Below, in pieces: positions 22,583-24,109 of a stretch of 50,135 bases of DNA; positions within the stretch are counted from its first letter, which is position 1, and each line of letters begins with the position of its first letter. The position numbers and the translations under genes were made by a program. The notes under the pieces are model-generated. The model was not told the DNA's origin, did no database searches, and was given only the letters and a program-made list of their open reading frames with translations. Source of the DNA: a virus; IMG/VR virus record IMGVR_UViG_3300011128_000204, positions 1 to 50,135 of that record. One strand, given 5' to 3'.

Positions 22583-22911
22583 ACAAGGTGCCTAGGTGGT
22601 CTGAACATCTTGCCCTTACGCATCAGTTCAGTAAGTCGCTTAGGCTTGGGTATCTTCACAGCCTGTTGTGATCTGAATGCCTTGAGCCTATGGCTTGCAC
22701 TACAGAATCTAGACAGTGGGTGGTGAGCCTTGAATGGTTCACCGCACCACTCACACTTGAAGTCACGCAGAACACGGTGCTTGTGTATCTCAGCAGAGTT
22801 CTCACGCAGCCCACCCCATTCAGCCTCATCTCGAGAGGGTGAGGTAGGTGAGGTGAGTGAGGTGGGTGATGTAGGTTTATCAGTATAGTTCGACTGCATT
22901 GGGTAGCTCAT
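22579..22911 (-). CDS. FCS/HNH-like zinc-finger protein with Thr-Ser-Pro linker
   Basis: 110 residues. After a low-complexity TSPTSLTSPTSPS linker (about 14-26) comes a zinc finger of the pattern CEWCGEPF ... RFCSASHR, common in small phage DNA-binding proteins. A basic tail (KIPKPKRLTELMRKGKMFRP) follows. The gene ends on the CTAG it shares with the small terminase stop and overlaps the upstream gene by 32 bases. Function unknown, probably nucleic-acid binding. Confidence 0.6.
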   Translation of the reverse strand: MSYPMQSNYTDKPTSPTSLTSPTSPSRDEAEWGGLRENSAEIHKHRVLRDFKCEWCGEPFKAHHPLSRFCSASHRLKAFRSQQAVKIPKPKRLTELMRKGKMFRPPRHLV

Positions 22912-23116
22912 TAACCTTTTTTTGAAGTGATGTCCATGCGGACTTGAGTGCGCCCTCTTCTTCTTTTGTGTAGGCTTGCGACCAGAAGCATGTGCCTATC
23001 AAGCCATGGATGCGCGGGTCATCGGTTGATGAACTCATCATGCGTAACAGTAACTCACGCTCAATGATGGTCAGGTTGATCAGAAAAATGGGATCGGTAG
23101 TGTTCGTATCACTCAT
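22880..23116 (-). CDS. Small protein, unknown
   Basis: 78 residues, helical. IFLINLTIIERELLLRMMSS gives a short hydrophobic helix, too broken by charges to be a confident membrane segment. Its start lies inside the end of the methyltransferase gene (8-base overlap). Similar small proteins with 'TIxExELLLxML' occur as unknowns in phage accessory regions. No function proposed. Confidence 0.55.
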   Translation of the reverse strand: MSDTNTTDPIFLINLTIIERELLLRMMSSSTDDPRIHGLIGTCFWSQAYTKEEEGALKSAWTSLQKKVNELPNAVELY

Positions 23117-23849
23117 GGTTCATTTCCTTGTCTGCGGCAAGCACAAGCTCACCTATTATTTGAATTAGTTGAGGTACAACAGCGTTGCCTAGGGATTTAA
23201 TTCTGTCCACCCTATTGGGAACCCCATCAGCCACTCGACCCACTGCGGGTTCAGTTGGCCAGTCACCGCCTGTCTCCCACCCAAGTCGTTGATCACCTTC
23301 GTGGTCAAGCTTTCTTGTGTGCCTTTCTTTCCCCGACTCCTGTCTTGATAGCCCAGCCTCGCCTCGTGAGCTAGTGGCGTAGGCCACAATGAATACCCTG
23401 TCTCTGCGGTGCTTCGCGTCAACGGCACAAGCTGGTAGTACAAACGTCCTGACGGTGTAGCCTTCGTTTTCCAAGTCAAGCGACACATCGTCGAGTGCCA
23501 TGCGGACGAAGCCAGAAACATTTTCTCCAATGACCCATCTTGGCTTGGACTCACTGATGACTCGTAACATTTCAGGCCAGAGGTGACGGTCATCGTCTTT
23601 GCCTCGCTGCTGTCCTGCAACTGAAAATGGTTGGCAAGGGAATCCCCCGCAAACAACGTCAATTGACCCTGCGTATTTTGTTCCATCTAATTTCCTCACA
23701 TCGCTATGCACAGGCACATCAGGCCAATGCTTGTTTAGTATCTTGGTACAGAATTCATCACGCTCACAGAAGGCAGTGGTAGTCATACCACACGCCTCCA
23801 ACCCAAGCGAGAACCCGCCTATGCCTGAGAAGAGATCAAGGACTCTCAT
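23109..23849 (-). CDS. DNA cytosine-5 methyltransferase (compact phage Dcm type)
   Basis: 246 residues from the ATG at 23,849, which overlaps the upstream stop in ATGA (a GTG at 23,864 would add five residues). Motifs: I DLFSGIGGFSLG, IV GGFPCQPFS with catalytic Cys72, VI GENV (Glu109 region), VIII HRRDRVFIVA, X LGNAVVPQL. Only about 65 residues separate motifs VIII and X, so the target-recognition domain is minimal compared with the usual 300-400-residue enzymes. It would methylate phage DNA, most likely to evade host restriction. A second long reading frame on the same strand lies inside it (23,189-23,686). Confidence 0.92.
   Translation of the reverse strand: MRVLDLFSGIGGFSLGLEACGMTTTAFCERDEFCTKILNKHWPDVPVHSDVRKLDGTKYAGSIDVVCGGFPCQPFSVAGQQRGKDDDRHLWPEMLRVISESKPRWVIGENVSGFVRMALDDVSLDLENEGYTVRTFVLPACAVDAKHRRDRVFIVAYATSSRGEAGLSRQESGKERHTRKLDHEGDQRLGWETGGDWPTEPAVGRVADGVPNRVDRIKSLGNAVVPQLIQIIGELVLAADKEMNHE
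23189..23686 (-). CDS. Overlapping reading frame inside the methyltransferase gene, phage 'WVEWLMGFP' family
   Basis: A 165-codon frame on the same strand as the methyltransferase but in another phase. It starts with ATG seven bases after AGGA. Its product has the marks of a protein family I know from many phages as separate genes: QLTLFAGDS near the start, LTWKTKATPSGRLYYQLVPL, SLWPTPLAHEA, and LNPQWVEWLMGFPIGWTEL at the end. In phase one the same bases read GGFPCQPFS, HRRDRVFIVA and VGRVADGVPNRVDR, all methyltransferase motifs. Either it is a true overlapping gene or the free-standing family arose from this frame. Expression is unproven. Confidence 0.5.
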   Translation of the reverse strand: MEQNTQGQLTLFAGDSLANHFQLQDSSEAKTMTVTSGLKCYESSVSPSQDGSLEKMFLASSAWHSTMCRLTWKTKATPSGRLYYQLVPLTRSTAETGYSLWPTPLAHEARLGYQDRSRGKKGTQESLTTKVINDLGGRQAVTGQLNPQWVEWLMGFPIGWTELNP

Positions 23850-24109
23850 TGCAGGTGCGCACACCGTATTGGTGCGCCATCATCATCGACCTCATCAGTG
23901 TCATAGAAGTCTTCACCTTCTTTTGATCGGTAAGGCTTGATATCGCCCTGCTGCACAATATCTTCTGCAGCCTCCCAATCTTCAGCCTCGACAAGGAAGC
24001 TTTCAGTTATGGTTCTGGTCACTCTTACTTCAAACTTAGAGGTAGCCCTATCAGATGCTGGCTTTTTTGAAGGAATGTCATCTTGGAATATAACGAAATC
24101 AGGACACAT
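23846..24109 (-). CDS. Small protein, unknown
   Basis: 87 residues. The middle (KFEVRVTRTITESFLVEAED...EAAEDIVQQGD) has the strand-helix layout of small phage proteins in which a beta strand with xFxVxVTRTxxxxxxVxVxA is followed by a helix. Acidic C-terminus. It overlaps the methyltransferase start (ATGA) and has GAGG before its own ATG. No function known. Confidence 0.58.
   Translation of the reverse strand: MCPDFVIFQDDIPSKKPASDRATSKFEVRVTRTITESFLVEAEDWEAAEDIVQQGDIKPYRSKEGEDFYDTDEVDDDGAPIRCAHLQ

Follow-up and report, generated by a model that had tools for sequence, protein, structure and literature searches.

The multispecific C5 cytosine methyltransferases of Bacillus phages, reportedly described by Trautner in 1996, are said to be single chains in which several target-recognition domains (TRDs) of ~40 residues follow one another between motifs VIII and IX. 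In M.EcoHK31I, the gene for the small subunit lies inside the gene for the large subunit and is read in the other frame. This enzyme and M.AquI are the known natural C5 methyltransferases made of two polypeptides (PMC3404938). M.AquI (CYCGRG) is split in the variable region, and its small subunit has motif IX, motif X and half of the variable region (PMC3404938). For M.EcoHK31I (YGGCCR; Lee, Kam and Shaw 1995, as cited in PMC3404938), motifs I-VIII and X are placed in the large subunit and motif IX in the small subunit, the TRD is ascribed to the large subunit, and activity in vitro needs both proteins.

The locus investigated here lies in a window (the whole stretch of 50,135 nucleotides that was analysed, IMG/VR virus record IMGVR_UViG_3300011128_000204) that belongs to a phage, with identified genes for terminase subunits, portal, primase and annealing protein. 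The locus very probably encodes, in one stretch of DNA, both subunits of a C5 cytosine methyltransferase that is split in the manner of M.EcoHK31I. Its features are the following:

23109..23864, minus strand: alpha, a C5 cytosine methyltransferase of 251 aa with a GTG start and motifs I, IV (PCQ), VI (ENV), VIII (HRRDR) and X (LGNAVVP)
23189..23686, minus strand: beta, an ORF of 165 aa nested in relative phase +1 inside alpha, from ATG to TAG
23693..23696, minus strand: Shine-Dalgarno (SD) word AGGA of beta, seen in the sequence within alpha codons and ending 6 bases before the ATG (GTGAGGAAATTAG-ATG)
23662-23639, minus strand: beta LTLFAGDS, over alpha VVCGGFP
23423..23479, minus strand: conserved beta hairpin LTWKTKATPSGRLYYQLVP, from the alignment of relatives; an AlphaFold block with pLDDT 86-90 and strands at 69-76 and 82-89
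23389-23375, minus strand: beta LWPTP, just beyond alpha HRRDRVF and over FIVAYAT
23258..23389, minus strand: the single WPTP cassette of beta, at the TRD place between motifs VIII and IX, from the module catalogue and the nested codon-position rhythm
23204..23257, minus strand: C-terminal motif IX-like segment of beta, QLNPQWVEWLMGFPIGWT, from hhalign to canonical C5 methyltransferases
23172..23192, minus strand: alpha motif X, LGNAVVP, seen in the sequence, spanning the beta stop codon and back in frame 0

Along the DNA, the motifs follow each other as in an ordinary C5 methyltransferase, with motif VIII in frame 0, the variable region and motif IX in frame +1, and motif X again in frame 0. 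As in the description of M.EcoHK31I, motif IX appears, from its sequence, to lie on a second polypeptide, here beta, and as in that system the second polypeptide belongs to an overlapping gene, here the conserved nested +1 frame. In contrast to M.EcoHK31I, whose TRD is ascribed to the large subunit, the TRD slot is here under selection in the nested frame only, or mainly so, and cassettes can be arrayed in it. The small subunit of M.AquI likewise has motif IX, but it also has motif X, which at this locus returns to alpha. What is shared with the multispecific Bacillus phage enzymes is the presence, between motifs VIII and IX, of several exchangeable units of ~40 aa (a single one in the window copy); the difference is that their TRDs are in the same frame, whereas the cassettes here are in the overlapping frame.

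The initial annotation had reported a 165-codon frame in another phase of the same strand inside the methyltransferase gene, and this is confirmed, the phase being +1. The AGGA and ATG that it gave for this frame are also present, although they are separated by 6 bases and not by seven. All of the nested peptides that it named occur, but the statement that each lies exactly over a methyltransferase motif is only partly correct: LWPTP falls just past HRRDRVF, and LTWKTKATPSGRLYYQLVP overlies alpha DLENEGYTVRTFVLPACAVD, a place with no named methyltransferase motif. The beta peptide NPQWVEWLMGFPIGWT overlies alpha PAVGRVADGVPNRVDR. Two further minus-strand ORFs (22880-23116 and 23846-24109) flank alpha, each overlapping it by a few bases in the manner of a tightly coupled operon; the alpha stop and the start of the next ORF overlap by 8 bases, and the alpha start lies inside the end of the previous ORF.

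The nested frame is retained throughout the relatives of this locus. Loci were drawn from IMG/VR separately by the nested protein and by the methyltransferase, and in this first set (n=162, window included; 77 of the 162 fetched with alpha only) both frames are present in every locus, with the overlapping pairs in the same relative phase. A profile of the nested protein found 336 relatives from many phyla in GTDB genomes, and the methyltransferase overlap is in phase +1 in all 82 of the GTDB loci examined, 2 of them from the window's own record. A third set comprises 159 IMG/VR loci retrieved with the C-terminal motif and the K1H-type protein; phase +1 holds in 155-156 of them, and the exceptions are three near-identical contigs in which the frame is broken and one locus where two such genes stand in tandem. 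In sum, the nested frame is open, homologous and in the same phase in 403 loci, a total in which the sets have some contigs in common, and the few exceptions are loci with frame switches. The beta start codon is ATG in 102 of 116 relatives and is preceded by an SD-like word in 108 of them, mostly by 6-10 bases; these counts are descriptive because the beta start was chosen partly by its SD. Searches of IMG/VR and GTDB by nested protein, profile and motif pattern found no copy of beta without an overlapping methyltransferase among the 403 loci. The description of the family as free-standing in the initial annotation is not supported by these loci; its other suggestion, that what has been annotated as a widespread family is in fact the second frame of compact Dcm genes, agrees with these results.

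Both frames are conserved and selected. Among 49 independent pairs, four-fold degenerate sites of alpha differ at 0.337 and 0.326 in the two flanks, 0.177 in the overlap core, 0.134 in the C-terminal motif and 0.032 in the cassettes; the ratio to the flank is 0.52 (0.41-0.68) for the overlap and 0.10 (0.05-0.17) for the cassette region. The flanks and the core exhibit the codon rhythm of alpha, with the third position the most variable (0.309 and 0.338 in the flanks versus 0.203 in the core). In the cassettes it is alpha position 1, the nested wobble position, that varies (0.156), while positions 2 and 3 vary at 0.063 and 0.070. The four-fold rates and this rhythm together indicate double coding in the core, where selection acts on both frames, and a mainly beta reading of the cassette region. 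At four-fold sites of the nested frame, the cassettes differ at 0.174, under the alpha flank rate (~0.33), which indicates that either some alpha constraint or recent cassette exchange remains; alpha may therefore constrain the cassette region too. The initial annotation had proposed that one piece of DNA is read as two protein families, and had warned of a chance shadow should relatives show stop codons or loss of the ATG together with unconstrained methyltransferase synonymous sites. The open frame and its ATG are in fact conserved and homologous in the relatives, the Dcm synonymous sites are constrained, and the two-family proposal is upheld.

Alpha by itself has the catalytic part of the enzyme. 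It matches PF00145 in Pfam (4.8e-47), only over profile positions 1-168 of 324, and phrog_363 in PHROGs (1.4e-79), and its predicted model matches the M.HhaI fold over ~163 residues. The catalytic residues (PCQ, EN, RxR) are invariant in 37 relatives. Motif IX is absent from its frame, both in the window copy and in the compact type generally. Over the cassette region the alpha frame is of low complexity, with a hydrophobic fraction of 0.146 against 0.326 in the alpha core, and the model falls below pLDDT 50 at residues 168-201; the predicted peptide looks like a disordered linker. With a Pfam match ending at 168 of 324 and an unstructured stretch at 168-201, alpha has no recognisable TRD or motif IX in its own chain.

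These missing parts appear to have counterparts in beta. C5 methyltransferases were compared in ten bacterial genomes that also bear the compact type. A full-length nested frame is absent from those that match almost the whole Pfam profile, although one such enzyme (L253) gives a 62-residue nested fragment match at 28 bits, and those with a recognisable in-frame motif IX have no nested frame at all. In the truncated type, whose Pfam match stops after ~140-230 positions, the nested frame is present in 12 loci; the other loci with such coverage are either fragments at contig edges or canonical enzymes that were matched separately. When the beta profile was aligned by hhalign with canonical enzymes, a set that included an M.HhaI sequence entered by hand, the first-ranked alignment placed QLNPQWVEWLMGFPIGWT on motif IX (KLHPRECARVMGYPDSYK), a short match with P 0.007 for the whole beta profile and E 3e-5 for the segment. 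The beta C-terminus, NPQWVEWLMGFPIGWT, thus matches motif IX. Searches of the whole PDB with the same beta and motif IX profiles were not significant, and the best matches of the motif IX profile were unrelated.

The variable region of beta, in the slot where TRDs belong and ahead of the motif IX-like C-terminus, consists of 1-8 cassettes with a median of 42 residues, each starting with WPTP. The 450 cassettes form 98 clusters, and a given cassette can be found in different slots, in different hosts and in betas with very different N-termini; WPTP cassettes are also found in the K1H-type beta and in the betas of E. coli prophages. These cassettes, as putative TRDs, probably choose the sequence that is methylated. 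Long betas such as L131:3170-4900 and L155:3170-4606 carry an insert of ~100 residues (TTMKELAEKTDLKKTTIEHWFRKDKAGFSHPSVEDWE) between WPTP cassettes, with weak helix-turn-helix matches below the Pfam cut-offs; from its sequence it is possibly a different type of recognition unit. In L051, L119 and L202, some cassettes of the form GGTGxxxxMxxLxxKGxITxEExxxxxxGNGG...NPEWxEWLMGY hold or precede a second motif IX-like copy, which sits inside the array or just before its end.

Beta matches phrog_1008 (4.8e-30), a family labelled DNA methyltransferase, and its C-terminus matches phrog_26627; beta matches phrog_31772 and phrog_27243 as well, and these families are labelled 'DNA methyltransferase' or unknown. 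Despite that label, Pfam finds no methyltransferase domain in beta, and there is no significant match in Pfam, NCBIfam, PDB sequences or PDB folds. The predicted model of beta, at pLDDT 58, is poor and resembles no structure in the PDB, so that it shows no TRD fold. The first ~100 residues overlie motifs IV-VIII, have no counterpart in canonical C5 methyltransferases and look like an overprinted extension. The hairpin LTWKxKxTPxGRLLFQL is modelled with confidence and is perhaps used for docking on alpha.

Four other explanations of the nested frame deserve consideration. When codons were shuffled with the methyltransferase protein and codon usage held fixed, the permuted genes still scored a median of 69 bits against the nested-family profile, so alpha residues partly shape the nested sequence; to this extent the frame might be a shadow, held open by conserved alpha residues and codon bias. 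However, real nested frames score 234 bits, and that of the window 239 bits versus 61-98 for its permuted versions, with a profile that includes the window sequence. Only 10 nested stops occur in total in 116 real genes, whereas 7.2 per gene are expected under permutation; the window gene acquires 6.4 on average and stayed open in 0 of 200 permutations. The cassettes also show the nested codon rhythm, and both frames are open over 479-619 codons in L131, L136 and L155. A chance shadow is refuted by these permutation, profile-score, codon-rhythm and long-overlap tests, its remaining probability being negligible, and the nested frame is not chance. A constraint on the DNA or RNA, for example from sites of cassette recombination, would suit the recurrence of cassettes in different contexts, but it would not make the cassettes differ by nested-frame codon position as they do, and is scarcely credible.

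The two other alternatives concern what is made from the second frame. Beta could be a real protein with a separate job, anti-restriction or regulatory, that arose by overprinting and is simply linked to the methyltransferase gene, and both its lack of a significant PDB match and its N-terminal residues foreign to canonical enzymes fit this idea. Yet beta is never found without alpha in the 403 loci, it is present where alpha has no motif IX and absent from full-length enzymes, its C-terminus is collinear with motif IX, and its cassettes occupy the TRD slot; a separate job is accordingly unlikely. It is also conceivable that there is no internal start and that ribosomal frameshifting joins motifs I-VIII, the TRD and motif IX in one alpha-beta chain, in the way that the catalytic half is joined in frame to the beta C-terminus in L198, L228 and L059. 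Such a fusion would drop the ~100 N-terminal residues of beta, which are nevertheless conserved and constrain alpha synonymous sites, and the SD-like words and ATG codons at the beta start argue against it further, making it very unlikely. Beta as a partner protein of the methyltransferase, an idea already raised in the initial annotation, is the best-supported explanation; the motif IX-like beta C-terminus and the nested-frame selection in the cassettes had not been noted there.

Several loci depart from the usual arrangement. Frame switches within the overlap occur in L198:2702-3751, L228:2516-3571, L202:2792-3759, L059:1123-2058 and L349-L352, in which a single frame joins either the catalytic half to the beta C-terminus or the beta N-terminus to alpha motif X. 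L198 and L228, with the catalytic half and motif IX in one frame, imply that such switches occur or that the sequences contain errors; for the group as a whole, errors in the sequence, decay or a return towards a single-chain enzyme may be the cause. In L392:132-1952, two methyltransferase ORFs lie head to tail and the second has the nested frame. Five loci with identical match scores (L236-L240) are in one Roseovarius chromosome record (OX638333.1), suggesting near-identical prophage copies. The alpha of an E. coli prophage (L440:2363-3532) is given in RefSeq as two incomplete pseudogene pieces, and the nested beta frame continues over the gap between them.

In a split enzyme of this kind, alpha in frame 0 would provide the catalytic large domain, with motifs I-VIII and X and the catalytic Cys, ENV and RxR. 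Beta, presumably translated in frame +1 from the internal start with its own SD, would supply motif IX and, at the TRD place, one or more WPTP cassettes acting as candidate TRDs. The two would assemble into one active enzyme by analogy with M.EcoHK31I, and copies with many cassettes would be multispecific. A likely use would be the shielding of phage DNA from host restriction, and the arrangement may plausibly have arisen when the TRD-IX segment of a single-chain enzyme shifted frame and was rescued through internal initiation. More broadly, and with somewhat less assurance than for the single locus, the relatives seem to constitute a very large, mostly unannotated class of split C5 methyltransferases with specificity in the second frame, through swappable arrays of TRD cassettes in beta, double coding over overlaps of up to ~620 codons, and a variable region in alpha that is only a linker.

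Nested genes of the beta family have been annotated as the 'g62 internal gene' of Paenibacillus phage Lily and as ORF28 of Escherichia phage K1H, where 'DNA methyltransferase' is all that is said of function or mechanism. In the E. coli RefSeq records examined, alpha is annotated alone or as pseudogene pieces, and the four E. coli genome regions examined held only prophage copies and no EcoHK31I-like restriction system. The open-access literature, with subscription papers outside its scope, yielded no earlier description of nested phage methyltransferase genes as a split enzyme with out-of-frame recognition cassettes. The two-subunit C5 methyltransferase is known already, while its breadth and the out-of-frame specificity arrays appear to be undescribed.

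Hundreds of phages and prophages preserve this double coding, which annotations mostly omit. In annotations, hundreds of 'cytosine methyltransferases' of phages and prophages stand as single genes, while half of the enzyme seems to be in the other frame; if only the annotated gene is recoded and expressed, the product could appear dead or without specificity. These loci are among the clearest long overlapping gene pairs in double-stranded DNA phages, and their overlap has a testable reason, in that the two products would be subunits of one enzyme. The cassette arrays would form a natural store of C5 methylation specificities.
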